From positions 1,180,501-1,244,500 of the forward strand of contig NZ_CP101125.1 of NCBI RefSeq assembly GCF_024296925.1: a stretch of DNA of 64,000 nt, in the 5' to 3' direction. Positions 1-37,297 of this stretch are shown piece after piece (position 1 is the first letter of the stretch; the number at the start of each line of letters is the position of its first letter). Both the position numbers and the translations under genes were made by a program. The notes under the pieces were generated by a model. The model did not search any database and was not told the DNA's origin. It saw only the letters and a list, made by a program, of their open reading frames with translations. The DNA is from Pseudomonas nunensis. GTDB lineage: Bacteria > Pseudomonadota > Gammaproteobacteria > Pseudomonadales > Pseudomonadaceae.

Positions 1-3000
1 CGCGACAGTGACTGCGAATTCCACTTCATGTCGTTCGCCTTCGACGGTGCGCATGAACGCTGGCTGACCAGCCTGACCCACGGTGCGTCGCTGCTTATCC
101 GCGATGACAGCCTGTGGACCCCGGAACAGACCTACAACGCCATGCGCGACCACGGCGTCACCGTCGTGGCATTCCCGCCGGTGTACCTGCAACAACTGGC
201 CGAACACGCCGAGCGTGAAGGGCATCCGCCGAAGGTGCGCATCTACTGCTTTGGCGGCGACGCGGTGCCGGCCGCGAGTTTCGAGCGGGTCAAGCGCGCC
301 CTCGATCCGGACTACATCATCAACGGCTACGGCCCGACCGAAACCGTGGTCACGCCGCTGATCTGGAAGGCCGGGCGCGAGGTGCCGTGCGGTGCCGCGT
401 ACGCGCCAATTGGCAGCCGCATCGGCGACCGCAGCGCCTACGTGCTCGACGCCGACCTGAACCTGTTGCCCCAAGGCATGGCCGGTGAGTTGTACCTGGG
501 TGGCACCGGTCTGGCCCGGGGTTACCTGAACCGTCCGGGCCTGACCGCCGAACGCTTTGTCGCGGACCCGTTCAGCAACGTCGGTGGCTTGCTGTACCGC
601 ACCGGCGACCTGGTGCGCCAGCGTGCCGACGGTACTTTCGACTACCTGGATCGCATCGATAACCAAGTGAAAATCCGTGGTTTCCGTATCGAACTCGGCG
701 AAATCGAAGCGCGCTTGCAAGCCCTCGATGGCGTGCGCGAAGCGGTGGTGGTCGCCCAGGAAGGCACGGCTGGCAGCGGCAAGCGTCTGGTGGCCTACGT
801 GGTGGCGGATGCGTTGAACGCGGCGCGGGTTGATTTTGCCGAGAGCCTGCGCGAGCAATTGAAAGTCGCCTTGCCGGCGCACATGGTCCCGGCCTATTTG
901 CTGCTGCTCGAACGTCTGCCGCTGACCCCGAACGGCAAACTCGACCGCAAGAACCTGCCCAAGCCAGATGTCAGCCAATTGCAGCAAGCCTACGTGGCGC
1001 CGCAAAGCGCGCTGGAGCAGCAACTGGCGACGATCTGGCAGGACGTGTTGAAGATCGATCAGGTCGGCCTGAGCGACAATTTCTTCGAACTGGGCGGCGA
1101 TTCGATCATCTCCATTCAAGTGGTCAGCCGCGCCCGCCAGGCCGGGATTCGCTTCACACCGAAGGATTTGTTCCAGCACCAGACCATCCAGGCCTTGGCC
1201 ACGGTGGCGCGCCTGGGCGAACAGGCCCAGCTTATTGATCAGGGCCCGGTCACCGGCGAACTGGCGTTGTTGCCGGTGCAGCAAGTGTTCTTCGCCCAGA
1301 CTATTCCTGAGCGTCAGCACTGGAACCAGGCGGTGATGCTCAAGCCAACGCAAACCCTCGATGCCGTTGTGCTTGAACGGGCGTTGGGTGCGTTGATTAA
1401 CCATCACGACGGCTTGCGCTTGAGCTTTGTCGAGCAGGCCGATGGCTGGCAGGCGCAGTACCGCGCGATCAATCAACAGGCAGACGGAATTGTCTGGGCG
1501 GTCGATGTCGCCGACGCCGCAGGGCTGGAAGCCGTGGCCAATGAAGCGCAACGCAGCCTGAACCTGCAAGGCGGGCCGCTGGTGCGTGCAGTGCTGGCCA
1601 ACCTCGACGACGGCAGCCAGCGCTTGCTGCTGGCGATCCATCACCTGGTGGTGGACGGCGTGTCGTGGCGGATTCTGTTTGACGATCTGCAAACCGCGTA
1701 TCGCCAATTGTCGGCGGGTGAACCGCTGCAATTGCCAGCCAAGACCAGTGCCGCCAAGGCCTGGGCCGAACACCTGCAAAGCTATGCGCGCAGTGCGCCG
1801 TTGCAACAGGAATTGGCCTACTGGCAACAACAGTTGCAAGGCGCCGACGTGGCGCTGCCGTGCGACAACCCAGAGGGTGGGCAACAGAACCGCCATGCGC
1901 TGACCGTTCGCACGCAACTGAACAAAGCACTGACCCGGCAACTGCTGCAAGACGCCCCGGCGGCTTATCGCACGCAGGTTAACGACCTGCTGCTGACCGC
2001 GCTGGCTCGGGCCATGGTGCGCTGGACCGGCGCCGACAGCACGTTGATTCAGCTTGAAGGCCATGGCCGCGAAGAACTGTTCGACGGCGTGGACCTGACC
2101 CGCACCGTGGGTTGGTTCACCAGCCTGTTCCCGGCCAAACTGACGCCGACCGCCGACCTCGGCGGCTCGCTGAAACAGATCAAGGAACAGCTGCGCAGCA
2201 TCCCGAACAAAGGCATCGGTTTTGGTGCGCTGGCGCATTTGGGCGACGACGCCGCGCGTGAGGCGCTGGGTCAGTTGCCGGTGCCGCGCCTGACGTTCAA
2301 CTACCTGGGGCAGTTCGACGGCAGCTTCACCGAAGCCGATGGCGCGCTGTTCGTGCCGTCCAGTGAAGCGGCCGGCGATGAACTCGATGACGGCGCGCCA
2401 CTGGCCAACCACCTGGCCCTCAACGGTCAGGTGTACGGCGGTGAATTGAACCTGGGCTGGACCTTCAGCCGCGAGATGTTCAACGAGGCGACCATCCAGC
2501 AACTGGCCGACGATTACGCGCTGGAACTGCAAGCGCTGATCGCCCATTGCTGCCAGGCCGGGCAACACGGCGTCACGCCGTCGGACTTCCCGCTGGCGTG
2601 CTTGAACCAGGCACAACTCGACGGCTTGCCGTTGGCGCCGCAGTTGATCGAAGACCTTTATCCACTGTCGCCGATGCAGCAGGGCATGCTGTTCCACGCG
2701 GTGTACGAAGAAGCCACTGGCGATTACATCAACCAGATGCGCCTCGACGTCGAAGGGCTCGACCCCGAGCGTTTCCATCAAGCGTGGCAAGCGGCGGTGG
2801 AGGCCCACGACATCCTGCGCACCCGTTTCGTCTGGCAGGGCGAACTGGACGCGCCGGTGCAAGTGGTCAGCAAACACGTGCAGATGCCTTACAGCCTGCA
2901 TGACCTGCGCGCCGAGCCGCAGCTTGAACAGGCGTTGCAGACCCTCGCCGACATCGAGCGTCAACGCCTGGACCTGAACGCATCGACCTTGCTGCGTCTG

Positions 3001-5805
3001 GTGATTGCGCGGGTCGACGACAACCGTCATCACCTGATCTACACCAACCATCACATCCTGATGGACGGCTGGAGCAACTCGCAGTTGCTCGGCGAAGTGC
3101 TGCAACGCTACAGCGGCCAGTTCCAGGCGACCCATGGCGGACGTTATCGCGACTACATCAACTGGCTGCAACGCCAGGACGCCGCCGCCAGCGAAGCCTT
3201 CTGGCTGCCGGCGCTGCGCAACCTCGACGAACCAACGCGCCTGGCCCAAGCCGTGGCCCGGCCAGCGGACGCTGACGAGCAAGGTTATGCCGATCACTTC
3301 CAGGTGCTGGACGCCGAACAGACCTTGCGCCTGAGCGAGTTCGCCCGCGCCTCGAAAGTCACGGTCAACACTTTGGTGCAAGCCGCATGGCTGCTGTTGC
3401 TGCAACGCTACACCGGCAAATCCACCGTGGCCTTCGGCGCCACTGTGGCCGGACGTCCTGCGGACCTGCCGGGTGTCGAGCAACAGATCGGTCTGTTCAT
3501 CAACACCTTGCCGGTCATCGCCAGCCCACAGGCGCAGCAGTCGCTGGGCAGTTGGTTGCAAGCGGTGCAGGCGCAGAACCTGGCGCTGCGGGAGTTCGAA
3601 CACACCGCGTTGTTCGATATCCAGCGCTGGGCCGGGCAGGGCGGCGAAGCCCTGTTCGACAGCATCATGGTGTTCGAGAACTACCCGATTTCCGAGGCCC
3701 TGGAACAGGGCGCACCGCAGGGACTGCGTTTTGGTCCGGTGGCGAATCACGAACAAACCAACTACCCGCTGACATTGCTGGTGAGCCTGGACCGTCAATT
3801 GTCGGTGCACATGAGCTATCAGCGCGGCAGTTTTGCCCAGGCGACCATCGAGCAACTGGCGGGGCATTTGCAACATCTGCTGAGCCAGATGACCGCGCCG
3901 GAACGTTGCCTCGGTGAGTTGGCATTGCTCGACGATGCTGAACAACGCCAGGTGTTGCTGGACTGGAACCCGGTAGACGAAGCGTTCGCCCAGGACCTGT
4001 GCATTCACCAGTTGATCGATCAACAAGTGGCGGCGCAACCGAACGCGTTGGCGGTGACCTTTGCCAACAAGCAACTGACCTATGCCGAACTCGATGCCCG
4101 GGCCAATCGCCTGGCGCACAAACTGATCGAACTGGGCGTCGGCCCAGAAGTGCGGGTCGGCGTGGCGATGCAGCGTTCCGACAGCCTGCTGGTCGCATTG
4201 CTCGCGGTGCTCAAGGCCGGTGGCGCCTACGTGCCGCTGGACCCGGATTACCCGGCCGAACGGGTCGCCTACATGCTCGAAGACAGCCACGCTCTGGTGC
4301 TGCTGACTGAACAAGCCATCGCCGCCACCCTGTCGGTGAGCGCCAATACCCAAGTGCTCTGGATCGATCAGGTCGAAGCGCAACTGGCGGCTTATCCGCA
4401 CACCACACCGCTCACCCGCGTCACGCCGGACAACCTGGCCTACGTGATCTACACCTCCGGTTCCACCGGCAAGCCGAAAGGCGTGTCCATTGCGCATCGC
4501 AACGTGCTGGCGCTGATCGACTGGTCGCAGTCGGTCTACAGCCGCGACGACATTCAAGGCGTGCTGGCCTCGACCTCGGTGTGCTTCGACTTGTCGGTGT
4601 GGGAGCTGTTTGTCACCCTGGCCAACGGCGGCTCGCTGATCATCGCGCGTAACGCGCTGGAACTGGTGCAACTGCCGGCGCGGGATCAAGTGCGCCTGAT
4701 CAATACCGTGCCGTCGGCGATCAATGCACTGCTGGGCGCGGATCAGATTCCGCCGAGCGTGCGCATCATCAATCTCGCCGGTGAACCCCTCAAGCAAAGC
4801 CTGGTGGATACGCTCTACGGGCAGGCGACGGTCGAGCATGTTTTCGACCTGTATGGCCCGTCGGAAGACACCACCTATTCCACCTGGACCCGGCGCGAGG
4901 CGGGCGGCAAGGCGAACATCGGTCGTGCGCTGAAACACACCGCCAGTTACTTGCTGGATGCCGATCTGCAACCGGTGCCGGTCGGTGTGTCGGCCGAGCT
5001 GTACCTGGCCGGCGCCGGCATCACTCGCGGTTACCTGGCACGTCCGGGCATGACCGCCGAGAAGTACGTGCCGAACCCGTTCTCCAGCACCGGCGAACGC
5101 CTGTACCGCACCGGTGACCTGTGCCGCTATCAGGCCGACGGTGTGCTCGAGTATCGCGGTCGCATCGACCATCAAGTGAAGATCCGCGGTTTCCGCATCG
5201 AGCTGAGTGAAATCGAAGCGCGGTTGCTGCAACAACCGGGCGTTCACGAGGTGGCGGTACTCGCCCAGGAAGCCCAGGGCGGTCAGCAATTGGTGGCCTA
5301 CGTGGTCGCGCCGCAACTCGACCTGAACGCCGCTGACGCCCAGCGTCAATTGCGCGATGAACTCAAGGCCGGGCTCAAGGCCAGCCTGCCGGACTACATG
5401 GTCCCGGCGCATCTGCTGTTCATCGAACAACTGCCGCTGACCCCCAACGGCAAGCTCGACCGCAAGGCGTTGCCGAGCGTGGACGCGAGCCAGCTGCAGG
5501 CCAGTTATGTCGCGCCACACAGCGAACTTGAGCAACAGGTCGCCGCGATCTGGCAGCACGTGTTGACCGTCGAGCGCATCGGTTTGAACGACCACTTCTT
5601 CGAGCTCGGCGGCCACTCGCTGCTGGCCGTCAACGTGGTCTCGCGGGTCGCCCTCGAACTGGGCCTGACCCTGACCCCGCAATTGCTATTCCAGTACCCC
5701 GTCCTCAGGGATTTCGTCGCGCAACTCGACACCGACGGCGGGGCCATCAACGAACAGAAACTGAACAAGCTGGAAAGCCTGCTTGACGAAATGGAGGAAG
5801 TCTAA
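1..5805 (+). CDS. Pyoverdine side-chain NRPS, 3' part (A-T-E-C-A-T), PvdI/PvdJ type
   Basis: The reading frame is open at base 1, so this is the C-terminal part of a larger peptide synthetase. Domain order by nucleotide: A (to about 960), T (GGDS near 1096), E (HHLVVDG at 1638), C of the MQQGMLF type that accepts a D-residue (HHILMDG near 3050), A (about 4000-5470), T (FFELGGHS near 5598). The first A pocket reads D-G-E-A-C-G-G-V-T, which I recall as the Lys signature of pyoverdine synthetases. The second reads D-L-W-N-N-A-L-T-Y, close to the known Ala code DLFNNALTY. The fragment should therefore add D-Lys and then L-Ala. There is no thioesterase, so the chain passes on. The stop TAA shares its last base with the ATG of the next NRPS, which indicates translational coupling. 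The exact Pvd letter cannot be settled without the upstream part. Confidence 0.93.
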   Translation, partial: RDSDCEFHFMSFAFDGAHERWLTSLTHGASLLIRDDSLWTPEQTYNAMRDHGVTVVAFPPVYLQQLAEHAEREGHPPKVRIYCFGGDAVPAASFERVKRALDPDYIINGYGPTETVVTPLIWKAGREVPCGAAYAPIGSRIGDRSAYVLDADLNLLPQGMAGELYLGGTGLARGYLNRPGLTAERFVADPFSNVGGLLYRTGDLVRQRADGTFDYLDRIDNQVKIRGFRIELGEIEARLQALDGVREAVVVAQEGTAGSGKRLVAYVVADALNAARVDFAESLREQLKVALPAHMVPAYLLLLERLPLTPNGKLDRKNLPKPDVSQLQQAYVAPQSALEQQLATIWQDVLKIDQVGLSDNFFELGGDSIISIQVVSRARQAGIRFTPKDLFQHQTIQALATVARLGEQAQLIDQGPVTGELALLPVQQVFFAQTIPERQHWNQAVMLKPTQTLDAVVLERALGALINHHDGLRLSFVEQADGWQAQYRAINQQADGIVWAVDVADAAGLEAVANEAQRSLNLQGGPLVRAVLANLDDGSQRLLLAIHHLVVDGVSWRILFDDLQTAYRQLSAGEPLQLPAKTSAAKAWAEHLQSYARSAPLQQELAYWQQQLQGADVALPCDNPEGGQQNRHALTVRTQLNKALTRQLLQDAPAAYRTQVNDLLLTALARAMVRWTGADSTLIQLEGHGREELFDGVDLTRTVGWFTSLFPAKLTPTADLGGSLKQIKEQLRSIPNKGIGFGALAHLGDDAAREALGQLPVPRLTFNYLGQFDGSFTEADGALFVPSSEAAGDELDDGAPLANHLALNGQVYGGELNLGWTFSREMFNEATIQQLADDYALELQALIAHCCQAGQHGVTPSDFPLACLNQAQLDGLPLAPQLIEDLYPLSPMQQGMLFHAVYEEATGDYINQMRLDVEGLDPERFHQAWQAAVEAHDILRTRFVWQGELDAPVQVVSKHVQMPYSLHDLRAEPQLEQALQTLADIERQRLDLNASTLLRLVIARVDDNRHHLIYTNHHILMDGWSNSQLLGEVLQRYSGQFQATHGGRYRDYINWLQRQDAAASEAFWLPALRNLDEPTRLAQAVARPADADEQGYADHFQVLDAEQTLRLSEFARASKVTVNTLVQAAWLLLLQRYTGKSTVAFGATVAGRPADLPGVEQQIGLFINTLPVIASPQAQQSLGSWLQAVQAQNLALREFEHTALFDIQRWAGQGGEALFDSIMVFENYPISEALEQGAPQGLRFGPVANHEQTNYPLTLLVSLDRQLSVHMSYQRGSFAQATIEQLAGHLQHLLSQMTAPERCLGELALLDDAEQRQVLLDWNPVDEAFAQDLCIHQLIDQQVAAQPNALAVTFANKQLTYAELDARANRLAHKLIELGVGPEVRVGVAMQRSDSLLVALLAVLKAGGAYVPLDPDYPAERVAYMLEDSHALVLLTEQAIAATLSVSANTQVLWIDQVEAQLAAYPHTTPLTRVTPDNLAYVIYTSGSTGKPKGVSIAHRNVLALIDWSQSVYSRDDIQGVLASTSVCFDLSVWELFVTLANGGSLIIARNALELVQLPARDQVRLINTVPSAINALLGADQIPPSVRIINLAGEPLKQSLVDTLYGQATVEHVFDLYGPSEDTTYSTWTRREAGGKANIGRALKHTASYLLDADLQPVPVGVSAELYLAGAGITRGYLARPGMTAEKYVPNPFSSTGERLYRTGDLCRYQADGVLEYRGRIDHQVKIRGFRIELSEIEARLLQQPGVHEVAVLAQEAQGGQQLVAYVVAPQLDLNAADAQRQLRDELKAGLKASLPDYMVPAHLLFIEQLPLTPNGKLDRKALPSVDASQLQASYVAPHSELEQQVAAIWQHVLTVERIGLNDHFFELGGHSLLAVNVVSRVALELGLTLTPQLLFQYPVLRDFVAQLDTDGGAINEQKLNKLESLLDEMEEV

Positions 5806-8800
5806 TGGACAAGAGTGTTGCTTTGAGGATTGCCAAGCGCTTTATCACTCTGCCGCTGGACAAGCGCAAGTTGTACCTGGAGAAGATGCTCGAAGAGGGC
5901 GTGTCCCCGGCGAACTTGCCGATTCCCGAGGTCAAGTCAGGGTTTGAATCGATCCCGTTGTCCTACGCCCAGGAACGCCAGTGGTTCCTCTGGCAGATGG
6001 ACCCCCATAGCACCGCGTATCACATCCCCAACGCCTTGCGCCTCAAGGGCGAACTGGATGTGCCGGCGCTGGAACGCAGCTTCAATGCGCTGGTGCAGCG
6101 CCATGACAGCCTGCGCACGACGTTCATCGAGCAGGACGAAAAAACCGTCCAGGTGATCCATGGACAGATGCCGATCAGCATCGACATTCAAGCCCTCGAC
6201 GCTGACCTCGCCCCGGCAGTGCTGGACGAGCGGATCAAGGCATTTGTCGAGCAGGAAACTCACCGGCCTTTCGATTTGCAGCATGGGCCGCTGCTGCGGG
6301 TGTCGCTGCTCAAGGTCGCCGACGACGATCACGTCCTGGCACTGATCCAGCACCACATCATCTCCGATGGCTGGTCGATGCAAGTGATGGTCAAGGAATT
6401 GATCCAGCACTATGTCGCCCAGACCTCGGGTCAGCCGTTGACCCTGCCTGAGCTGACCGTGCAATACGCCGACTACGCGATCTGGCAGCGCCACTGGCTG
6501 GAAGCCGGGGAGCGCGAGCGCCAACTGGCGTACTGGACGGCGACGCTGGGCGGTGAGCAAACCGTGCTGGAGTTGCCGATCGATCATCCGCGCCCGGCGC
6601 TGCAAAGCTTTCGCGGCGCGCGGCTGGACCTGAATTTGTCGCCAGCCCTGGCCACTTCGCTCAAGCAACTGGCCCAACGCGAAGGCGCCAGCCTGTTCAT
6701 GGTGTTGCTGGCCTCGTTCCAGGCCTTGCTGCATCGCTACAGCGGCCAGCCCGATATCCGCGTCGGCGTGCCGGTGGCCAACCGCAACCGCGTGGAAACC
6801 GAGGGCCTGATCGGCTTCTTCGTCAACACTCAGGTGCTGAATGCGCAAGTGCACGGGCAGTTGCCGTTCAATCAATTGCTGGCCCAGGTCAAGCAATCGG
6901 CGATGGCGGCCCAGGCGCACCAGGACTTGCCGTTCGAGCAACTGATCGAAGCGTTGCAACCGGAACGCAGCCTGAGCCATAGCCCGGTGTTCCAGGTGAT
7001 GTACAACCACCAGGCACTGAATGACCAGACCCAGCAACAGAGCCGCGTGCAACTGCCGCAGTTGAGCGTCGAAAGCATTGTCTGGGAAGGGCGCACCGCG
7101 CAGTTTGACCTGACGCTGGGCACTTACGAATCGAACGACGGCGTATCGGCTGAGCTGACCTACGCCACGGATCTGTTCGAGCCAGCGACCATCGAGCGTC
7201 TGGCGCGGCATTGGCAAAACCTGCTGCAAGGCATCGTCGAGCAATCCAGCCAGCGCATCGGTGAGCTGGCGTTGCTGGACAGCGGCGAGCAAAGCGTTCT
7301 GTTGCAGGATTGGCATCGTGTGGTCGAGCACTCCGCGCAAGCGCCGTGCGTGCAGCAGCGCATCGCGGCTCAGGCGGAACAGACGCCGGATGCCGTCGCA
7401 CTGATAGTCGGCGAACACAGCCTGACCTATGCGCAACTGGACGCCCGCGCCAATCAACTCGCGCATAAGCTGATCGAAGCGGGTGTAGGCCCGGATCGTT
7501 TGGTGGGCATTGCCGTCGAGCGCAGCGTGGAAATGATTGTCGGCCTGTTGGCGATTCTCAAGGCTGGCGGTGCTTATGTGCCGCTGGACCCGGCGTACCC
7601 CGAGGATCGACTGGCCTACATGATCGAGGACAGCGGTCTTGAACTGCTGCTGACTCAGTCCCATCTGCAAGCACAGTTGCCGATTCCGGCCGGGCTCAAC
7701 ACCTTGTTGCTGGATCAGCCGCAAACGTGGCTGGCGGCGTATCCACAGACTTGCCCAACTGTGGCGCTGAATGGCGAACACCTGGCTTACGTGATCTACA
7801 CCTCCGGTTCGACCGGAAAACCGAAGGGCGTGATGGTGCGCCACGCCGCCCTGTGCAACTTCGTCGAAAGCATGGTTCATCAGCCGGGCCTGAATCCGCA
7901 TGACCGCATGCTGTCGCTGACCACCTTCTCGTTCGATATTTTCGGCCTGGAAATCTACGGCCCGCTGCTGGCCGGCGCCCGAGTAGTCCTGACCGGCAAG
8001 GACGTGCACCAAGACCCGCAAGCCGTGCTCGAACTGATCGACCGCCACGGCGTGAGCGTGTTGCAAGCCACGCCATCAACCTGGCGCATGTTGCTCGACC
8101 ACGAACAGGCCTCGATCCTGACTGGCCGTACCTTCCTGTGTGGCGGCGAAGCACTGCCGCAGGAATTGGCCGAGCGCATGCTCGCGCTGTCGCCAAAAGT
8201 CTGGAACCTCTATGGCCCGACCGAAACCACAATCTGGTCAGCCCTGCATCCATTAACGCGCGAGAACGCCAAGCCGTACCTCGGCAAACCGATCGACAAC
8301 ACCGCGCTGTACATCCTCGGCAGTGACCTGGAACTCAACCCGATCGGCGCGCCGGGTGAACTGCTGATCGGCGGCGACGGCCTCGCACGCGGTTATTTCG
8401 AGCGTCCATCGCTGACCGCCGAACGCTTCGTGCCAGACCCGTTTTCCTCCAGCGGCGAGCGTTTGTACCGTACCGGCGACCTGACCCGTTACCGCGCCGA
8501 GGGCGTGATCGAGTACATCGGCCGCATCGACCATCAAGTGAAAATCCGTGGCTTCCGCATCGAACTCGGCGAGATCGAAGCGCGCCTGTTGGCGCTCGAT
8601 AGCGTGCGCGAAACCGTCGTCGTGGCGCAGGACGGCCCGACCGGGCCACAGCTGGTGGGTTACGTGGTCGCGGCAACAGCTGTCGAGGATGAAGCCGCGT
8701 TGCGTGCTGAACTCAAGGCCAGCCTCAAAGCCGAATTGCCGGAATACATGGTGCCTGCGCACCTGTTGTTCCTCGCGCAATTGCCGCTCACGCCCAACGG

Positions 8801-11800
8801 CAAGGTCGACCGCAAGGCATTGCCGTCGCCGGATGCCAGCCTGCTGCAATCGACGTACATCGCGCCGCAAACCGCGACTCAGCACAAAGTGGCCGAGATC
8901 TGGCAAGCAGTGCTCAAACTGGAGCAGGTCGGTTTAAGCGACAACTTCTTCGAACTCGGCGGCCACTCGTTGCTGGTCACCCAAGTGATTTCTCGCGTGC
9001 GCCAAGCGCTGAATGTTCAGGTGCCGTTGCGCACGTTGTTCGAACACAGCACGTTGCAGGACTTCGTCGCGGCACTCGGCGTGGAGCCGGCACACGCCGA
9101 GCCCGCCATTGTCGCGCTGCCACGCCAGCAACCGATGGCGTTGTCGTATGCCCAGGAACGCCAGTGGTTCCTCTGGCAATTGGAGCCGACCAGCAGCGCT
9201 TACCATGTGCCAGCGGCGTTGCGCCTGCGCGGCACTTTGGACCTGGCGGCGTTGCAGAATAGCTTCGACACGTTGATCACCCGCCACGAATCCCTGCGCA
9301 CTCGTTTCATTCAACAAAACGAACAGACCTGGCAGCAGATCGATGCGCCGTCGCCCCTGGCCCTCACGGTGCAAACCCTCGATGGCGGACTCGACGACGA
9401 ACGCCTCAAGGCGTTGGTGGCCGAAGAAACCCTGGCGCTGTTCGACCTGCAACAAGGTCCGCTGCTGCGGGTCAAGTTGCTGAAGCTGGCCGCCGACGAT
9501 CACGTCCTGGTCCTGACCCTGCACCACATCGTCTCCGATGGCTGGTCGATGCAGGTCATGGTCGATGAATTGATCGAACTCTACGCCGGTTACAGCGTGG
9601 GCCAGCCGCGCCAACTGCCGGCGCTGGCGGTGCAATACGCCGACTATGCCGTGTGGCAACGGCAGTGGATGGAGGCCGGTGAACGGGAGCGCCAACTGGG
9701 TTACTGGACCGCGCAACTGGGCGGCGATCAGCCGTTGCTGGAGTTGCCGGCGGACCGTCCGCGTCCGGCCGAGCAAAGCTATCGCGGTGCGCGTCAGGAC
9801 ATCCCGCTGAACGCGGAACTGGCCACGGCACTGAAGCAAGTGGCGCAACGGGAAAACGTCACCCTGTTTGCACTGTTGCTGGCCTCGTTCCAGACCTTGC
9901 TGCATCGCTACAGCGGCCAGGCCGACATTCGCGTCGGCGTGCCGGTGGCCAACCGCAACCGCCTCGAAACCGAAGGCTTGATCGGCTTCTTCGTTAACAC
10001 CCAGGTGCTCAAGGCCGAGATCGACAGTCAGCAGACGTTCCGTGGTTTGCTGCAACAGGTCAAAAACACCGTGCTCGGCGCCCAGGCCCATCAAGACCTG
10101 CCGTTCGAGCAACTGGTCGATGCCCTGCAACCGGAACGCAGCCTCAGCCACAGTCCGTTGTTCCAGGTGATGCACAACCACCAGAGCCAGGCCCGTGAAG
10201 CACGTGGCGCGGCGCGTCTGCCGCAGATCGAGATCGAAGGGCTGACCTGGGCTTCGCACACGGCGAAGTTCGACCTGACCCTCGACACCTTTGAATCCGT
10301 CGACAATGTCTGGGCCGAACTGACCTACGCCACTGACCTGTTCGACGCCGCGACCATGGCGCGCATGGCGGAGCATTGGACGAATCTGCTGAACGCCATC
10401 GTCGCCGATTGCGGCCAGCGCATCGCCGAGTTGCCGTTGCAGGACAACGCCGAACGTGAGGCAACGCTGCTGCAGTGGAACCCGGCCGTGGCGGATTTCC
10501 CAAGTCAACAATGTCTGCATGAACTGATCGAAGCCCAGGCCCTGCGTGCGCCCGAAGCGATTGCCGTGACTTACGGCGAGCAAAGCCTGAGCTACGCCGA
10601 GCTGAATGCGCGGGCCAACCCGCTGGCGCACAAACTGATTGAAAGCGGCGTCGGCCCGGACGTGCGCGTCGGCCTCGCGGTCGAGCGCAGCCTGGACATG
10701 CTGGTCGGCCTGCTGGCGATCCTCAAGGCTGGCGGCGCCTATGTGCCGCTGGACCCGACGTATCCAGAGGAGCGCCTGGCCTACATGATCAGCGACAGCG
10801 GCATTCGCCTGCTGTTGACCCAAAGCCATCTGCTCGGTCGCCTGCCGGTGCCGGACTCGGTGCGCAGCTTGATGCTGGATCAGGATCGCGACGGCCTCGA
10901 AGGCTACAGCGATGCCAATCCGCAAGTGGTCATGAGCCCGGACAACCTGGCTTACGTGATCTACACCTCCGGTTCCACCGGTCAGCCGAAGGGTACTTTG
11001 CTCGCCCATCACAACGTGCTGCGCCTGTTTGAAGCGACCCAAGACTGGTTCAATTTTGGCCCGCAGGATGTGTGGAGCCTGTTCCACTCCTACGCCTTCG
11101 ATTTCTCGGTCTGGGAAATTTTCGGCGCGCTGCTGTACGGCGGCAAACTGGTGGTGGTGCCGTACGAGGTCAGCCGTTCGCCGGAAGATTTCTACGCCTT
11201 GCTGTGCCGCGAGCGCATCAGCGTGCTCAACCAGACGCCGTCGGCGTTCAAGCAGTTGATGCAAGTCGCCTGCGCGCCGGAACATGCAGCGCTGCAACCG
11301 TCCCTGCGTTACGTGGTGTTCGGTGGCGAGGCGCTGGAGGTCAAGAGCCTGCGCCCGTGGTTCGAGCGTTTTGGCGACCAGGCTCCGCAACTGATCAACA
11401 TGTACGGCATCACCGAAACCACGGTGCACGTGACCTATCGTCCGTTGACTTTGGCGGACTTGCAGCGTGACGCGAGCAGTCCGATTGGCGAGCCGATTCC
11501 GGACTTGTCCTGGTATTTGCTCGACGGCGATCTGAACCCGGTCGCCAAGGGTTGCATCGGCGAGTTGTACGTCGGTCGCGCTGGCCTGGCCCGGGGTTAC
11601 CTGAACCGTGCCGACCTGACCTGCCTGCGCTTTATCCCGGACCCGTTCGCTGCCGACGGCGGTCGCCTGTACCGCACCGGCGACCTGGCGCGGTATCGCG
11701 CTGACGGCGTGATCGAGTACATCGGCCGCATCGACCACCAAGTGAAGATTCGCGGTTTCCGCATCGAACTCGGCGAAATCGAAGCGCAACTGCTGGAACA

Positions 11801-14800
11801 GCCTGCCGTGAGCCAAGCGGTGGTGCTGGCGCAACCCGGCCTCAGTGGCCAGCAATTGGTTGCCTGGCTGGTACCGGCCGACGCCGCGTTGCTCGACGCC
11901 GACTCGATCACCCAAGGCCAATGGCGCGACAGCGTGCGTGCCGCGCTCAAGGAAAACCTGCCGGATCACATGATCCCGGCGCACCTGTTGCTGTTGGCGC
12001 AATTGCCGCTGACCGGCAACGGAAAACTCAATCGCAATGCTTTGCCGTCCCCGGATGCGAGCCAGGCGCAGCAGGCTTATCAGGCCCCGCAAAGTGAGCT
12101 GGAACAGCGCATCGCGGCGATCTGGCAAGACGTGTTGAAGCTGCCTCAAGTCGGGCTCAACGACAACTTCTTCGAACTCGGCGGCGATTCGATCATCTCG
12201 ATCCAGGTAGTCAGCCGCGCCCGTCAACTGGGGATTCGCCTGAGCCCCAAAGACTTGTTCCAGCACCAGACCGTGCAGCGTCTGGCGCTGGTGGCCCAGG
12301 TCGGTGACAGCGAATCCGGCATCGACCAACAAGCGGTGAGCGGCGCGGCGCTGCTGTTGCCGATCCAGCAGCAGTTCTTCGACGATCAAATCCCCGAGCG
12401 TCATCACTGGAACCAGTCGGTATTGCTCAAGCCGCGAGTAGCGCTCGACGCTGAAAAAATCGAGCAGGTCCTGCGTGGACTGGTGGCGCATCACGATGCG
12501 TTGCGCCTGAGCTTCACCCCGCACAACGATGGCTGGGTGGCAGAGCATCAGTCGATTGAACAACTGCAACAGCCATTGCTATGGCAGGAATCGGTGGCTG
12601 ATGCCGCCAAACTCGAAGCCTTGGGCAATCGCGCCCAGCGCAGTCTCGACCTGCAACAAGGTCCGTTGCTGCGCGCCGTGCTGGCGACCCTGGCCGATGG
12701 CACTCAGCGTCTGTTGCTGGTGATCCATCACCTGGCGGTGGACGGTGTGTCGTGGCGGATCCTGCTCGAAGACCTGCAAAACGGCTATCAGCAATTGCTC
12801 GACGGCCAGGCGTTGAAACTGCCGGCCAAGACCAGTGCCTTCAAGGACTGGAGCGAGCATTTGCAGCGCTATGCCAACAGTCCGGCGTTGCAGCAGGAAC
12901 TGGCCTACTGGCAAGCCTGCCTGAGCGATGTGAGCACCGATTTGCCGTGCCTGCGCGACGATGCCGGCCAACAAAACCATCTGCGCGTGAATGTTCAGAC
13001 GCGTCTGAATCAGAGCCTGACCCGACAATTGCTGCAAGAAGCCCCGGCGGCCTATCGGACCCAGGTCAACGACCTGTTGCTGACCGCACTGGCACGGGTG
13101 ATCGGCCGTTGGACCGGCCAGCCATCGACGCTGATCCAGCTCGAAGGCCATGGTCGCGAAGAGTTGTTCGACGGGGTTGACCTGACCCGCACCGTGGGTT
13201 GGTTCACCAGCCTGTTCCCGGTGCGCCTGACCCCGGCCAGTGAGCCCGGTGCAGCGATCAAGCAAATCAAGGAACAACTGCGCTCGATCCCGAACAAGGG
13301 CATCGGTTTCGGCGCCTTGCGGCATCTGGGTGACGAGCAGGCGCAGCAATCCCTGCGTGCACTGCCAAGCCCACGGATCACCTTCAACTACCTCGGCCAG
13401 TTCGACGGCAGTTTCGAGGGCGATGAAGCGGCGCTGTTCACCCCGGCCCAAGACAACGCCGGGCTCGATCAAAGCCTTGAAGCGCCGATGGGCAACTGGC
13501 TGACCCTGAATGGCCAGGTGTATGGCGGCGAATTGAGCGTCGGCTGGAGTTTCAGCCGCGAACGTTTCGACACGGCCACCATTGAACGCCTGGCCGAGGA
13601 CTACGCTGAAGAACTAGCGGCATTGATCGCGCACTGCGTGACCCCGGGCGTGCAGGGCCTGACGCCTTCGGACTTCCCATTGGCCGGCCTGACCCAGGCG
13701 CAACTCGACAGCGTGCCGGTAGCGCCGCAGCAAATTGCCGACATCTATCCGTTGTCGCCGATGCAGCAGGGCATGTTGTTCCACACCCTTTACGAGCAAC
13801 AGGCTGGCGACTACATCAACCAGATGTGCGTGGATGTCGAAGGCCTGGATGTCGAGCGTTTCCGCGAGGCCTGGCAAGCGGCGGTGGGCGCCCACGATGT
13901 GCTGCGCAGCAGTTTTGTCTGGGACGGTGAGTTCAAGCGTCCATTGCAGGTGATTCACAAACAACTGGCCGTGCCGTTCACCTTCCACGACTGGCGCGCC
14001 CACAGCGATGTGGCGCTGGCGCTCAGCGAACTGGCGGCCGCACAGCGCCAGCAGGGTTTCGACCTTGCGAGCGCACCGTTGCTGAACCTGACCGTGGTGC
14101 GTCTCGACACCGCGCGTTATCACCTGATCTACACCAGCCATCACATCTTGATGGACGGCTGGAGCAATTCGCAGTTGCTCGGCGAAGTACTGCAACGCTA
14201 CAGCGGCCAGGTGCCGGCGAACACGGCGGGGCGTTATCGCGATTACATCGAATGGCTGACCCAGCAGGACGCGCAGGTCACCGAAGGTTTCTGGAAAGGC
14301 CAATTGGCCGGATTCGATGAGCCAACCCGGTTGGCCAAGGCGCTGGTGTGGACCGGCAGCGAAGCCACCAACAGCGCACAGGGCGAACACTTCCTGACTC
14401 TGGACCTGACGCAGACTGCCGGGCTGAATGCCTTTGCCCGCGAACAGAAAGTCACCCTCAACACCATGGTGCAAGCCGCTTGGCTGCTGTTGTTGCAACG
14501 CTACACCGGGCTGGACACGGTCAGTTTCGGCGCAACGGTGTCCGGGCGTCCGGCGCAACTGGTCGGGGTCGAGCAACAGATCGGTCTGTTCATCAACACC
14601 TTGCCGGTGGTCGCCAGCCCGCGTGCCGAGCAGCCGCTGGCGCAGTGGTTGCAGCAGGTGCAGGCGCAGAACCTGGCGTTGCGCGAGCAGGAACACACCG
14701 CGCTGTTCGACATCCAGCGTTGGGCCGGGCAGGGCGGCGAAGCCTTGTTCGACAACATCCTGGTGTTCGAGAACTACCCGATCTCCGAAGCCCTGCAACA

Positions 14801-17800
14801 GGGGGCGCCGCAAGACCTGCGCTTCGGTGAAGTGGGCAACTTCGAGCAAACCAACTACCCGCTGACCCTGGCGGTCAACCTCGGCGCCGAGCTGTCGTTC
14901 CAACTGAGTTTCGACCGTCAGCAGTTCGATGAGACGGCGATTGAACAACTCGCCGGGCACCTCGCACACCTGTTGTTGCAAATGGTCGAGGCTCCTGCCG
15001 CCAGTTGCGTAGGCGATCTGGCGCTGGTCCCGAACGCAGTGCGCGAGCCGCTGGCGCTGCCGGCTGATGGTGTGGGCGTGCAGCGTTTGTTTGAGCTGCA
15101 AGCTGAACGCACCCCGGACGCCTTGGCGCTGATTTTCGACGAGCAACGCCTGAGCTATGCGCAACTGAATGCCCAGGCCAACCAATTGGCGCGCGTGCTG
15201 CTGCAACACGGCGTCGCCCCGGAAGTGCTGGTGGGCATCGCGGTCGAGCGCTCGACCCAGATGATTATCAGCCTGTTGGCGGTGCTCAAGGCTGGTGGCG
15301 CTTATGTGCCGCTGGACCCGGAATACCCGGCCGAGCGCCTGGGCGCGATGATCGAGGACAGCGGCCTGCGCGTGCTGTTGACCCAACGCCACCTCGCGGC
15401 GACGTTGCCAACCGCGGCGGGCGTGACTGTCCTGAGCCTGGATCAACTGGATTATCCGACTCAGACCGACAACCTGCCCGAGCGCAGCGGCCGGCAAAAC
15501 CTCGCGTATGTGATGTTCACCTCGGGCTCCACCGGGCGTCCGAAAGGCGTCGGCATCACGCAATCGGCGCTGACCCGTCACACCCAGGTCGCTCTGGACG
15601 TCCTCGGCCTCACGCCGCAGGACCGTTCCCTGCAATTCGCCACGTTCAACTTCGATGCCTTTGTCGAGCAGCTTTACCCCGCGCTGATTTGCGGTGCCTC
15701 GGTGGTGCTGCGCGGTCAGGACATCTGGGACAGCGAAACCTGGTATCGCGAATTGCTCGACAAGCAGTTCAGCGTCAGCGACCTGACCACCGCCTACTGG
15801 AACATGTTGGCCAAGGACCTCGCGGCGGCGGGTCACCGCGACTATGGCGTGCTGCGCCAGATGATCGTCGGTGGCGAAGCCATGCCGCCGGAAGGGGTTG
15901 CCACTTGGGGGCAGGCCGGCCTCGGCCATGTGCGCCTGCTGAACACCTACGGCCCGACCGAAGCCACGGTCAGCGCCACGGTGCTCGATTGCAGCGACTA
16001 CGTGTCCGGCCGCCTCCCGTTGCCGGTAAGCATGCCGATTGGCCGGGCGTTGGGCGGACGGGGGATTCATGTGCTCGACACCCAGGGCCAACCAGCGCCG
16101 GTCGGCGTGGTCGGTGAACTGGTGATTGGTGGTGAACTGTTGGCTCGCGGCTATTTCCAGCGCCCGGAACTGACCGCCGAGCGCTTCATTCCTGATCCGT
16201 TCGATCCAGTCGGCGGTGGCCGTGTGTACCGCACCGGCGACCTCGCGCGCTATCGCGCCGACGGTGTGATCGAGTACGTCGGGCGTCTGGATCATCAAGT
16301 GAAGATTCGCGGTTTCCGCATCGAACTCGGTGAAATCGAAAGCCATCTGTTACAGGTGCCAGCAGTGCGTCAGGCCTTGGTGGTCGCGCAACCGGGCGCC
16401 ATCGGCCAGCAATTGGTGGCGTACGTGGTGTTCGACGATCCGGCGCACATCAGCGGCGATGCGTCCGCGCTGGCGGCGTTGCGCGATGACATCAAGGCAC
16501 GCTTGAAAGCGAGCCTGCCGGATTACATGGTGCCGGCCCACGTGCTGTTCCTCGAAAGCCTGCCCCTGAGCCCGAATGGCAAGATCGATCGCAAGGCCCT
16601 GCCGGGCATCGACGCGAGTCTGGTGGCGTTGGACTTTGTTGCGCCGCAAGGCGAGCTAGAACAGCAGATCGCCACGGTCTGGCAAGACGTGCTGGAGCTG
16701 GATCAGGTCGGCCGCGACGATCACTTCTTCGAACTGGGCGGGCATTCCCTGCTCGCGACGCAAGCCGTCTCGCGCCTGCGCAAACTCACGGCTTGTACGC
16801 TGAGCCTGCGTGACCTGTTCAGCCATCCGCGACTCAAGGACCTGGCAGCGTGGATCGCGCAGCAGCAGGGCACACCGGAACCGAGCGGCCACAGTGTGGT
16901 GCTCAAGGCCCACGGCACCCGGCACCGCGCACCGTTGTCGCTGGTCCAGCGCCGCTTGTGGATCGCCGAGCAATTGTCCGGCGGCACGGCGGCCTATGGC
17001 ATGCCGATGGCCCTGCGTTTGCGCGGCGAGTTGTCGGTGGAGCGGCTGATCGGCAGCTTCGCCGAGGTGGTGCGTCGTCACGAAGTACTGCGCACCGCGT
17101 ACACCCAGGACGATGAAGGCGATCCGATTGCGGTGATCGCCGAGCAGGTCGATGTGGATTTCCCGGTGATCGATTTGTCCGGTCTGTCGCGCAGTGCCCA
17201 GGAAGAATTGGTCGCGCAAGCGGCCCTGGAAAACGCACGCACGCCGATTGATATGGAACACGCGCCGCTGCTGCGCGGGCGGATCCTGCACCTCGGGCCG
17301 ACCGAGCACGTGATGCTGTATGCGATGCACCACATCATTTCCGACGGTTGGTCGATGGGCTTGCTGGTCAACGAATTGGTGCAGATTTACGAGCGTACCA
17401 AGGCCGGTGACCTGAACCCGCTGCCGCCGCTGGACGTGCAGTATTCCGACTTCGCGCTGTGGCAACAGGAGCTGGAACAGCAAGGCGTGCTGGCGCGTCA
17501 GGCCGAGTACTGGAAAACCCGACTGGCAGGCTACAACGGGCAACTGAAATTGCCAGCGGATAACCCGCGTGGTTTGACGCCGTCCTATGAGGGCGACGCG
17601 GTGCAGTTCCAGCTCACCCCGTCACTCAGCGCGGCATTGCGCAAGGTGTCGATGGACGCGGGCGTCACGCTGTACAGCACGTTGCTGGCGTCGTTCCAGG
17701 TGTTGTTGCACCAGGTCAGCGGTGCGGCGGATGTGCTGGTCGGTGCCGACGTGGCCGGGCGTGAACAGCCGGAACTGGAGCGCTTGATCGGCTTCTTCGT

Positions 17801-19346: not shown

Positions 19347-22300
19347 ACGAGGTATCGATGGACCAGCAGGACCTGGGTTTCGCCTTGACGCCTGAACAGC
19401 AACGCTTGCTGGAGCAGTTGCCAAAGGCCCCGGCCTGCGGCGATGCGCTGCGTTTCCTGGAGGTCGAGATCAACGGCGCCCTCGATCCGCAGCGGCTGCA
19501 AAGCGCACTGGACAGCGTGCTCGCGCAGCAGCCGATGCTGGTCGCGCGGCTGGGCAAGGCGCCGGGTTTCCATGGTTTGCGCCAGTTTGTCGGGGGCGCC
19601 GAGCGCTTCCCGCTGACCGTGCAGGCGCGGGTTGAAACCCCGGCCGGTATTCAGGCTCAGCTGGCTGAATGGGCGGAGCGTTCTTTTGTCGTCGGTGAAT
19701 CCGAGGGCGCGCAAGCGGTGCTTTATCGCTTGGCCGATGATCAGTGGAAACTGGTGCTGGGCCTGGCCCGGCACAGCCTCGATGAAAGTGGCGTGCGCTT
19801 GCTGTATCAGCAATTAGTGCAGGCCTATGCGCAAGACGCGGCGGCGGACGATGACGAGACTGGGGAATTCACTCAGTACCTGGATTGGCGCAGTGAAGTG
19901 GTGCTCGACGAAGACGCGGCGGGTGCGCGTGTTTATTGGCAGGAACATTTGCTAGGTGCGGACCCTGATCTGAGTACGCCGTGGTTGGCGTATCGCAATC
20001 CGGGTTCTGCTGCTTCATCGGCGACTGAATCGCTGACCTTCGAACCTGCACTGCGCAGCGGTTTGCAGCAGGTCGCCGGGACGTTGGAGCAATCGCCGGG
20101 CGTGGTGCTGCAAGCAGCGTGGTGGTTGTTGCTGGGTCGGCTTAGTGGGCATGAACAGGTGCTGGTCGGTGTGCGGCACGACAGCCGCGAAGATTACGAA
20201 TACTTCAGCGATGCAGTCGGTGTGTTCGCGAAAACCCTGCCGTTGAACCTGTCGCTGACGGCGAATACCGCGTTCAGCGCTTGGGTGGCCGAGTTAGCGG
20301 CGCGTCTGGATGAGCATCGCACCTGGCAGGAATACTGGTCGCCTGAACTGGCCCCGACAGCGGCTCGTCCGGCGTATGGTTTTGCCGTTTGCCGGGACAC
20401 GCAGGCCGCGACATCCGGTGGTTTGCAGTGGGCGCCGCGTTCGACCGTACGCGAAGCGCTGTTTGAATTGATGCTTGAACTGGAAACGGACGAGGCGGGC
20501 AGTGCCCACGCATTCCACCTGCATTACAACCCGTCCCGCTACTCCGCTCAGGCGATCGAAGGGTTACTGGCACAGTTGCGCGTGTTGCTGGAAAACATCG
20601 TCGGCAATGCTCACGCCGAACTCGGTCAACTGAGCGTGTTGGGTGACGCTGAACAACAGCGTTTGCTGTCGATCAACCCGCCCGTGCAGGCGTTGGCCGA
20701 TGCTCGATTCCTGCCGCAGCGGATTGCCGATTTTGCCCGGACCACACCGGACGCTATCGCCCTGACTGACGGCGATCAGCGCCTGACTTATGGGCAATTG
20801 CAGGTGAAGGTCGAGGCGCTGGCCCAGGCACTGAAAGCCCAGGGTCTGGCACCGGGGGCGATTGTCGCGCTGGCCTTGCCACGTTCGGCGGAGTTGGTGG
20901 TTGCGATGCTCGCGGCATGGCGCATCGGCGCGGCGTACCTGCCGCTCGACCCGCAATGGCCGCAAGCCCGTCAGGCCTTGATGCTGGAACAGGCTGGCGC
21001 TGCTTTGCTGCTGGTCGACGCCGCACACATTGCGCAATGGCACGATCATCCGTTGCCCTTGGCGACCGTGGACCGCGTGCTGCAATCGGCTCCGGCGGCG
21101 ACGTCGGCCATTACGTTTGACACCCAGGGTGATCAGGCGGCTTACGTGCTGTTCACCTCCGGCTCCACGGGCGTGCCGAAAGGTGTGGTGATTGAACATC
21201 AACAGTTGCTCAACTACACCGCTCACGCCAGCCAGGCCTTGGGGCTGGAGCAGTGCCGGCAGTTCGGCTTCACCTCCACGGTGGCGGCGGACCTTGGCAA
21301 CACCGCGCTGTTCGGCGCGTTGTTCAATGGCGCGGCGCTGCATGTGGCCAGCGATGAGCAAATGCAGGACGGCAATTTGTTTGCCGGTTTCCTGCAACAG
21401 CAAGCCATCGATTGCCTGAAGATCGTGCCGTCGCATTTGGCTGCGCTGCTCGACAGTGAGCGCGCGCAATTGCCGCAAACGCTGGTTCTCGGTGGCGAGC
21501 CGATTGCGCCGGCACTGGTGCAACGGATTGCCGGTTTGCGCAGCGATTGCCGGGTATTCAATCACTACGGCCCGACCGAAGCCACGGTCGGTGTGCTGGT
21601 GCATCCGCTGAGGCTGGATCTGCCGGACGCTGGCGTGCTGTCCCAGGTGTTGGGCAACAATCAGGTGTTTGTCCTCGACGACAATCTGCAACTGGCGCCG
21701 GTTGGTGTGCTGGGCGAGGTGTATTTAGGCGGCGCGCAGTTGTGCCGCGGCTATGTGAATGTCGAGGCCGATTCGGACGTGTTCATTCAGAGCCCGTTCA
21801 ATCCTCAGCAGCGTTTATATCGTACGGGGGATCTGGCGCGTTATCGCCCGGATCTGGCGATTGCGCTGCATGGTCGGCGCGATCAGCAGATCAAGGTGCG
21901 CGGTTTCCGTATCGAACTGGCCGAGATCGAAGCCGAGTTGCTGCGCTTGCCGCAGGTCGCGCAGGCGCTGGTGTTGCCGGGGCAATCCGCGCAGGACGGG
22001 ATGCTCGCTTTCATCGTCCCGCACGAGGCTCCTTCGGCGACGATGCTGGATACCGTTCGCGATGAACTGGCGCTGCGTTTGCCCAGCGTGATGCTGCCGC
22101 AGCATTTGCAATTCATCGAGAGCTTCCCGCGCTTGGCCAACGGCAAGGTTGACCGCAACGCGTTGCAACAACTGGCGTCCACCTCGGCGGACGATGAAGG
22201 CCTGCAACCTCGCGATGCGCTTGAGCAATTGCTGGTAACGCGCATGGCGCAATTGTTGGGGGTTGAGCGTCTGGGCATCGACCGGGACTTCTTCGCCGCC

Positions 22301-22564
22301 GGCGGCCATTCCTTGCTGGTGATCAAACTGGTGGCCGGCATTCGCAAGCTGTTGCAGTGCGAAATCCAGCCGGGCGTGGTGTTTGACCATCCGACCGTGG
22401 CGGGTCTGGCGGCGGCATTGCGGGCTCGGGAAAGCAGCCCAGGCCAACTGGAGAAAATCGCCCAGGCCCGGTTGCGACTGGACAACATGAGCCCCGAAGA
22501 AAAAGCGGCACTCACCGAAAAAGCCCGGCAACTGCAAAGCGCCAAGGCTGCGCAAAACGGTTAA
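19343..22564 (+). CDS. Asp-activating NRPS module (degenerate C-A-T, no thioesterase)
   Basis: A 1073-residue single module. The N-terminal 420 residues look like a condensation-family domain, but the HHxxxDG site reads R143-H-S-L-D-E148-S149, so it is probably not a normal peptide-bond catalyst. The A domain pocket reads D-L-T-K-V-G-H-V-G, one conservative change from the Asp code DLTKVGHIG. The T domain has GGHSLL near 22301 and the protein ends in a charged helical tail without a thioesterase. Four-base ATGA overlap with the upstream NRPS, whose C-terminus carries the aspartate hydroxylase. The likely role is to load Asp, present it for beta-hydroxylation, and pass beta-OH-Asp on. The degenerate N-terminal domain is a candidate 'interface' domain, the non-catalytic condensation relative described with fused siderophore hydroxylases; that assignment is inference. 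The last gene of the NRPS operon, since a strong terminator follows. Confidence 0.92.
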   Translation: MNEVSMDQQDLGFALTPEQQRLLEQLPKAPACGDALRFLEVEINGALDPQRLQSALDSVLAQQPMLVARLGKAPGFHGLRQFVGGAERFPLTVQARVETPAGIQAQLAEWAERSFVVGESEGAQAVLYRLADDQWKLVLGLARHSLDESGVRLLYQQLVQAYAQDAAADDDETGEFTQYLDWRSEVVLDEDAAGARVYWQEHLLGADPDLSTPWLAYRNPGSAASSATESLTFEPALRSGLQQVAGTLEQSPGVVLQAAWWLLLGRLSGHEQVLVGVRHDSREDYEYFSDAVGVFAKTLPLNLSLTANTAFSAWVAELAARLDEHRTWQEYWSPELAPTAARPAYGFAVCRDTQAATSGGLQWAPRSTVREALFELMLELETDEAGSAHAFHLHYNPSRYSAQAIEGLLAQLRVLLENIVGNAHAELGQLSVLGDAEQQRLLSINPPVQALADARFLPQRIADFARTTPDAIALTDGDQRLTYGQLQVKVEALAQALKAQGLAPGAIVALALPRSAELVVAMLAAWRIGAAYLPLDPQWPQARQALMLEQAGAALLLVDAAHIAQWHDHPLPLATVDRVLQSAPAATSAITFDTQGDQAAYVLFTSGSTGVPKGVVIEHQQLLNYTAHASQALGLEQCRQFGFTSTVAADLGNTALFGALFNGAALHVASDEQMQDGNLFAGFLQQQAIDCLKIVPSHLAALLDSERAQLPQTLVLGGEPIAPALVQRIAGLRSDCRVFNHYGPTEATVGVLVHPLRLDLPDAGVLSQVLGNNQVFVLDDNLQLAPVGVLGEVYLGGAQLCRGYVNVEADSDVFIQSPFNPQQRLYRTGDLARYRPDLAIALHGRRDQQIKVRGFRIELAEIEAELLRLPQVAQALVLPGQSAQDGMLAFIVPHEAPSATMLDTVRDELALRLPSVMLPQHLQFIESFPRLANGKVDRNALQQLASTSADDEGLQPRDALEQLLVTRMAQLLGVERLGIDRDFFAAGGHSLLVIKLVAGIRKLLQCEIQPGVVFDHPTVAGLAAALRARESSPGQLEKIAQARLRLDNMSPEEKAALTEKARQLQSAKAAQNG

Positions 22565-31363: not shown

Positions 31364-31448
31364 CGGTCTCTCGTCGTCGGCGACCGCCTGGGCGCTGACG
31401 GCTTGGCCGGACATCGCGCCCACACGGGTAAACATTCAGTGGGTAACG

Positions 31449-37252: not shown

Positions 37253-37297
37253 TCTAGCTTGGATAAAGCCTGCTTCATGGCTGACACAGGTAGGGCA

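Follow-up and report, generated by a model that had tools for sequence, protein, structure and literature searches.

The pyoverdine locus and its two glycine-type adenylation domains

The single-contig 7.33 Mb genome of Pseudomonas nunensis contains a locus that Pfam and NCBIfam models identify as a pyoverdine side-chain non-ribosomal peptide synthetase (NRPS) locus. We analysed a stretch of 64 000 nucleotides of this genome (the window; positions 1,180,501 to 1,244,500 of contig NZ_CP101125.1), and coordinates below are positions in it. The Pfam parse reveals modular synthetases made of condensation, adenylation and thiolation (C-A-T) domains, together with a terminal thioesterase (TE). Our subject is the A domain of the terminal synthetase, which very probably derives from a copy of an A domain in an internal synthetase of the same pathway.

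The side-chain synthetase NRPS1 lies in the window with its 3′ part (28-5805, + strand), the whole open frame of 4118 aa starting before the window. It is followed by the internal synthetase NRPS2 (5805-19346, +; 4513 aa), which Pfam and profile parsing resolve as C-A(Gly-type)-T-C-A(DFWNVGMVHK)-T-C-A(DAEDIGTVSK)-T-C-TauD, where the strings in brackets are specificity codes. One of the five C-type stretches that Pfam finds in NRPS2 is presumably an epimerisation domain. NRPS3 (19343-22564, +; 1073 aa) is parsed by Pfam as C-A-T without a thioesterase and carries the Asp-type code DLTKVGHVGK. A TonB-dependent siderophore receptor (23156-25636, +; TIGR01783 over cut-off) occupies the position of FpvA, and the terminal NRPS (27233-31435, − strand; 1400 aa) is parsed as C-A(Gly-type code)-T-TE. 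Pyoverdine-specific tailoring genes lie close by and mark the pathway: PvdN (34415-35698, −; NF051467, 790 bits against a cut-off of 650) and PvdP, the maturation tyrosinase (37259-38926, +; NF051454, 1078 bits against 625). The TauD-type dioxygenase domain of NRPS2 and the Asp-type code of NRPS3 presumably place a beta-hydroxy-Asp just before the last residue of the peptide.

A BLASTN comparison of positions 5001-20500 with 20501-45000 matched 7185-8976 (+) to 30043-28252 (−) with 87.6% identity over 1798 columns, while the next five matches by score reached 67.6-73.9% over 269-636 columns. This match pairs the A domain of NRPS2 module 1 (hereafter the internal copy) with that of the terminal NRPS (the terminal copy), both of which have the specificity code DILQLGLIWK. 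The two A domains are 90.6% identical in DNA, 79.2% at third codon positions and 95% in protein, compared with 53.9% and 50.9% DNA identity for the flanking C and T parts of the same modules. A first-pass annotation of this DNA had described the A domains as nearly identical between 'WHRVVEH' and 'NGKVDRKALP', with clearly different C and T domains on either side. The difference of the flanks was borne out, while near-identity holds for the protein and not for the DNA; with third positions 79% identical, the exchange is not very recent in this genome. A plot of identity along the genes, a check proposed in that annotation, has steep edges close to the A-domain limits. Protein identity in windows of 30 codons amounts to 27-60% over most of the C domain and 73% in its last window, then to 80-100% between 'WHRVVEH' and 'NGKVDRKALP', before dropping to 40% in the adjoining window.

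Repeats of this kind are open to misassembly, so the two copies might have been collapsed or misjoined. We regard this as a negligible prospect, since the assembly consists of a single contig, 9.4% of sites differ between the copies and the arrangement recurs in two other assemblies. Shared specificity, or old common descent of Gly-type A domains, would explain why both copies have the same code. However, a search of the genome with the terminal A domain gave 71 matches, comprising itself, the internal copy at 95% and others of which none exceeded 53%. The module-1 A domains of seven other relatives (a Gly-type code was read in four of these) are only 70-86% identical in protein to the terminal A domain, against 96% for that of Pseudomonas sp. 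dw_612 (G419), and a shared code alone cannot therefore account for 95%. The likeness, moreover, extends to third positions and breaks off close to the domain limits, and the trees described below place the terminal copies among the internal ones, all of which makes shared specificity a very improbable explanation.

Extent and direction of the exchange

We fitted two breakpoints to the terminal gene, taking as unswapped parent the terminal gene of strain GM18 (G420), whose protein has identities of 0.89 (C), 0.53 (A) and 0.88 (TE) to that of the window. The fitted segment runs from 30049 to 28423 (7179-8805 in NRPS2), with the next informative site at 28412 (8816). Within it, 556 of 619 informative sites are internal-like, compared with 43 of 672 outside (Fisher p 7e-231, for a segment itself picked by the fit). 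With genome G203 as parent, the left limit was unchanged and the right limit fell between 28423 and 28409. Identity thus starts to climb at 30049/7179, still within the C-domain end and about 130 bp ahead of 'WHRVVEH', and drops again at 28423-28412/8805-8816. Breakpoints had been predicted in the C-A and A-T linkers; they are indeed sharp and near the A-domain limits, although the left one lies further upstream, in the C-domain end. The exchanged unit includes about 40 residues of the C-domain end, the C-A linker, Acore and Asub, and is represented by a donor-type copy in NRPS2 module 1 (7179-8816, +) and, from the fit and the trees, a recipient copy in the terminal NRPS (28412-30049, −). It starts in the C end and finishes in or after NGKVDRK, and so does not correspond to an Acore-only unit that keeps the native C-A linker and Asub. 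Limits are alike in the three genomes with a Gly-type terminal code (left, alignment columns 1375-1421, 46 apart; right, 3090-3111, 21 apart).

We then searched 398 genomes of the genus, a sample of a larger group, for the T-TE part of the terminal gene. Some match was found in 370, with 14 relatives at 72-94% and 14 more at 46-53%. Loci were read from all 14 closer relatives and from 12 of the 14 more distant ones (G221 and G104, being fragmented, were left out); the 12 more distant loci provided codes and are absent from the trees. The alignment and trees exclude G422, G423 and G426, whose NRPS2 stretches were incomplete, and G179 supplied a terminal row only as its contig ends before the internal row. 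A scan of named genomes gave 14 loci, which became 13 Pseudomonas loci with one Flavobacteriaceae match unused; here P. frederiksbergensis 38F7 is G348 and P. fluorescens PS655 is G421. Five pairs were taken as identical strains (G348 = L108, G127 = L111, G179 = L112, G219 = L114 and G182 = L119).

The code of the first A domain of NRPS2 is DILQ(L/F)GLIWK in all 14 readable loci including that of the window, and in 19 of 19 when the named relatives are included. The terminal code is far more variable. In the close set (n = 15) it is Gly-type in two genomes (P. nunensis and 38F7), DAEDIGTVSK in 10 and DADEVGVVDK in three, whereas all 12 of the more distant set have DFWN(I/V)GMVHK and none the Gly-type. 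Two of the 13 named loci are Gly-type, namely 38F7 (already counted) and dw_612; GM18 has DADEIGIVSK and the remaining 10 have DAEDIGTV(S/V)K or DADEVGVVDK. The predicted terminal specificity, from codes read by alignment, is thus altered relative to the orthologues (DILQLGLIWK in place of DAEDIGTVSK, DADEVGVVDK or DADEIGIVSK). In a protein search, 20 clusters among the best 120 of 7754 matches were 1300-1450 aa long, of which two were Gly-type and 18 were not. These two, P0001 (17 members, including Pseudomonas sp. B21-053) and P0002 (two members, P. frederiksbergensis), indicate that there are more swapped strains beyond the three compared in DNA.

Published codes offer some guidance on what these domains load. 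DILQLGMIWK, one residue different from the code in the window, is given as Gly (PMC12283262), and on this basis we read DILQLGLIWK as Gly. DGEDHGTV has been predicted as Lys, one of two predictors disagreeing (PMC3207962), and its likeness to DAEDIGTVSK suggests a basic residue for the latter; DFWNIGMV has been matched to the Thr module of PvdD (PMC3207962). Our literature search did not find DAEDIGTV or DADEVG, and only DGEACGGVTK turned up. Together, the code and the domain order predict Gly as the last residue of this pyoverdine.

One tree was built from 20 terminal and 19 internal A domains, and another from C domains, including those of the 20 terminal modules. The Gly-type code is present in three of the 20 terminal modules (P. 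nunensis, 38F7 and dw_612), so it is not the case that relatives all carry a Gly domain in the terminal NRPS, the situation named in advance as evidence against a swap. The 17 non-Gly terminal A domains make up one side of a branch with 100/100 support, while the three Gly-type ones group with the internal domains (22 rows, 100/100; 17 rows, 98/97), and the approximately unbiased (AU) test rejects a tree that unites all terminal A domains (p-AU 0.001). In the C tree, by contrast, all 20 terminal C domains stay together (100/100), with those of the Gly strains placed beside the terminal C domains of the non-Gly genomes G203 and GM18 (98/100) in a subgroup of their own (96/82). The A tree therefore conflicts with the C tree, which follows the locus, and the two disagree in the manner that a swap predicts. 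On these comparisons of sequence, a copy of the internal A domain has very probably taken the place of the terminal one. That the transfer ran from internal to terminal is equally probable, because the internal code is Gly-type in 19 of 19 loci and the terminal code in only a few.

Another species could in principle have supplied the terminal Gly-type A domain independently of the internal copy. Horizontal transfer of pyoverdine NRPS parts does occur, and this very locus holds an import of about 8 kb (see below). Yet the terminal copies and their internal counterparts in these three genomes make up one group (93/98), from which all 16 remaining internal A domains are excluded, and no outside donor closer than the internal copies was found among the genomes searched; we consider such a source improbable. 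In an rpoB tree of 18 strains, the Gly strains form one clade, (G348,(G000,G419)), with 100/100 support. The simplest reading is a single internal-to-terminal swap in their common ancestor.

We propose that homologous recombination, by double crossover or gene conversion, hit the terminal C-A-T-TE synthetase in the common ancestor of P. nunensis, 38F7 and dw_612. The Gly-type A domain of NRPS2 module 1, about 20 kb away on the opposite strand, would have served as the template, and its copy would have displaced the terminal A domain along with the C-A linker and the final part of the C domain. A terminal module that formerly loaded another, probably basic, residue would now load glycine, which makes Gly the expected C-terminal residue of the peptide, probably preceded by beta-hydroxy-Asp. 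After the swap the copies would have kept exchanging sequence as their flanks diverged, most simply by gene conversion within the genome.

Later history of the two copies

If there had been one ancestral swap and the copies had simply diverged with no later exchange, the A domains should sort by locus. This was the first model considered, and it agrees with the like limits in all three genomes and with the single rpoB clade. Site patterns and AU tests went against it. Only one of 1599 columns of the A domain splits the three terminal from the three internal copies; the corresponding counts are 430 of 1377 columns for C and 110 of 339 for T. The AU test also rejects a grouping of the three terminal A domains by themselves (p-AU 0.0025) and of the three internal ones by themselves (p-AU 0.0055), whereas for C each locus is recovered as a clade. 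In all three genomes, moreover, the terminal copy is nearer to its own internal copy than to its terminal orthologues. A single swap followed only by divergence is thus unlikely. Given that the copies do not sort by locus, we think it quite likely that exchange between them went on after the swap. The A-domain swap or gene conversion proposed in the first-pass annotation accordingly stands, on the strength of the trees and sharp limits, with the amendment that one swap does not suffice, as the copies seem to have kept exchanging.

Several patterns suggest where this later exchange took place. Columns of the A domain that set two sequences apart from the rest unite same-genome copies 36 times (three pairs), terminal and internal copies of different genomes 31 times (six pairs) and copies at the same locus 23 times (six pairs). 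Identity between A domains is 0.906, 0.916 and 0.917 within genomes, 0.884-0.901 between orthologues and 0.890-0.913 for cross-genome terminal-internal pairs. At third positions it is 0.79, 0.81 and 0.82 within genomes, compared with 0.74-0.78 for terminal and 0.75-0.77 for internal orthologues; orthologous C domains have 0.82-0.87. The A domain nearest to each terminal copy is the internal copy of the same genome in three of three cases, by a modest margin, and internal copies are nearer to their own terminal copy than to internal orthologues (0.906 versus 0.901 at best, 0.916 versus 0.900 and 0.917 versus 0.901). The longest run of sites shared by a genome's own two copies exceeds permutation expectation in dw_612 (p 0.0004) and 38F7 (p 0.0042).

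Alternatively, exchange after the swap may have occurred mainly between strains, by homologous recombination with DNA of relatives. Shared runs between the terminal copy of P. nunensis and the internal copy of dw_612 (p 0.0006), and between the terminal copy of dw_612 and the internal copy of 38F7 (p 0.020), favour this route, and the dw_612 terminal copy is about equally close to the internal copies of P. nunensis (0.913) and of its own genome (0.917). Against it stand the three-of-three pairing of terminal copies with internal copies of the same genome, and the 36 same-genome splits over three pairs as opposed to 31 over six cross-genome pairs. We regard a mainly between-strain route as possible but doubtful, and conversion within the genome as the probable main route. 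Continued exchange was therefore probably mostly, though perhaps not only, within genomes; swaps repeated independently in the three lineages would leave much the same picture.

Some observations weigh against the account given here, and bear on different parts of it. The internal copy of P. nunensis is nearest to the terminal copy of dw_612 (0.913) rather than to its own (0.906), and the run shared by its own two copies is not significant (p 0.098). The two cross-genome terminal-internal pairs mentioned above also stand out, in a set of 15 pairs with p values uncorrected. Third-position identity of the orthologous T parts (339 columns) is 0.71-0.81, about like that of the A domains; since T is about as diverged, the greater divergence of A than of C is weak support on its own. 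The genomes in which both copies were compared number three. With respect to the swap itself, natural NRPS recombination has been described as mostly moving Acore with linker and Asub kept (PMC8097286), and here the C-A linker moved too. Finally, as regards specificity, the literal code DILQLGLIWK was not found in our literature search.

Recombination elsewhere in the pathway and in known systems

The donor gene is itself a mosaic. Modules 1 and 2 of NRPS2 (5805-13890, +) form the main part of an imported block that is nearest to genomes G373 and G105, as judged by sliding identity and a one-breakpoint fit, while NRPS2 to the right of about 13890 is nearest to G203 and G375. Informative sites are G203-like in 524 of 2137 cases to the left of this point and 1070 of 1236 to the right. 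The left edge falls in the last 450-column window or so of NRPS1, where the comparison was made through 38F7 as the window holds only the NRPS1 end, which gives an import of about 8-8.5 kb (about 5400-13890). NRPS3 and the receptor follow G203, G375 and GM18 at 90-92% (receptor, 92% to these and 98% to 38F7). Module 2 of NRPS2 is Thr-type here and Ser-type in the G203 group. The copying to the terminal gene came after the import, or with it, because the terminal A domain is of the type of the imported block.

PS655 (locus L144) provides a second case of an A domain out of step with its module. The C and T domains of its NRPS2 module 3 resemble those of relatives' module 3 (0.85-0.87 and 0.80-0.83), whereas the A domain, with the Thr-type code DFWNVGMVHK, resembles that of relatives' module 2 (0.84-0.86; C domains of the latter, 0.46). 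It is nearest to module 2 of G373, G105 and G182 (0.86), ahead of the module 2 of PS655 itself (0.84), so an outside donor is possible. This suggests that A-domain copying between modules of the pathway is not confined to the clade of P. nunensis. It also fits a wider proposal, which we slightly favour: that the inverted A domains about 20 kb apart keep converting each other while the adjacent C and T domains drift apart, so that two peptide positions (predicted to be 4 and 8) share one evolving specificity, and that the A domains of the pathway behave as an exchanging pool on fixed C-T-TE scaffolds.

Other signs of rearrangement were seen in relatives. The terminal genes of G375 (L073) and G203 (L072) are only 0.78 identical in C, compared with 0.94 in A and 0.91 in T, a pattern that suggests another recombination inside the terminal gene. 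In NRPS1 of 38F7 (L069), residues about 400-1270 have identities of 0.53-0.69 to G203 and G375 and 0.68-0.83 to G083, with a different first code, perhaps reflecting a further module replacement upstream. As to other genes, positions 44814-46151 of the window encode a flavin N-monooxygenase-like protein (183 bits, against a cut-off of 700 for the histamine N-monooxygenase model) that is perhaps the ornithine hydroxylase of the pyoverdine pathway. Outside the window, at about 2113000-2288000 (G000:C1), is a very large group of NRPS genes, the longest open frame measuring 10317 aa.

The kind of event described here is already published, and what is new is the instance, its limits and the evidence for continued exchange. 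The first-pass annotation was right that A-domain exchange is a known route of pyoverdine diversification: in the type XVII pyoverdine of P. chlororaphis 30-84, a substituted final A domain, nearest to internal Ala A domains of the same pathway, is predicted to have turned the last residue from Lys into Ala (PMC11366639). As in that strain, an A domain of the same pathway is predicted to have changed the last residue. The present case differs in that the linker moved with the A domain, the limits could be placed to within tens of bases, Gly is the predicted new residue and signs of later exchange can be seen; the discussion of that report calls for more detailed analysis of exchange limits. 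More generally, the alteration of A with most of C and T spared is like other NRPS A-domain substitutions, for which recombination hot spots include the C-A region (PMC7486941, PMC8097286). Movement of linker, Acore and Asub together differs from the mostly Acore units of PMC8097286, and resembles the engineered linker + A swaps that were found to work in PMC7486941.

Parallels exist beyond Pseudomonas. Intragenomic recombination also made the last module Gly-type in wolG1 of the wollamide/desotamide system (PMC9205934), where, in a Streptomyces hexapeptide pathway, part of an A domain was exchanged after gene duplication with a donor from another cluster; here, by contrast, the donor module belongs to the same pathway and gene duplication was not involved. 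Conversion of A-domain segments, also within the pathway (mcyB/mcyC), alters the product in cyanobacterial microcystin synthesis (PMC3640908, PMC8097286), the tract there being the specificity-conferring portion of the A domain (PMC3640908). The accessible part of PMC9205934 mentions concerted evolution only in passing, and a search by titles and abstract starts found no report of concerted evolution or gene conversion of pyoverdine A domains.

The terminal synthetase of P. nunensis thus offers a natural case in which the linker and whole A domain were replaced, with most of the C domain and all of the T and TE domains kept. The exchanged unit is of the kind that laboratory engineering of pyoverdine synthetases found to work, and the natural breakpoints are open to testing. 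The set of three genomes allows ongoing A-domain exchange to be measured against a single swap; if the two copies do keep converting each other, a later change of specificity in either could spread to the other. For the strain group as a whole, the swap shows a route to a new last residue of the peptide, which bears on receptor recognition and on the sharing of pyoverdines between strains.

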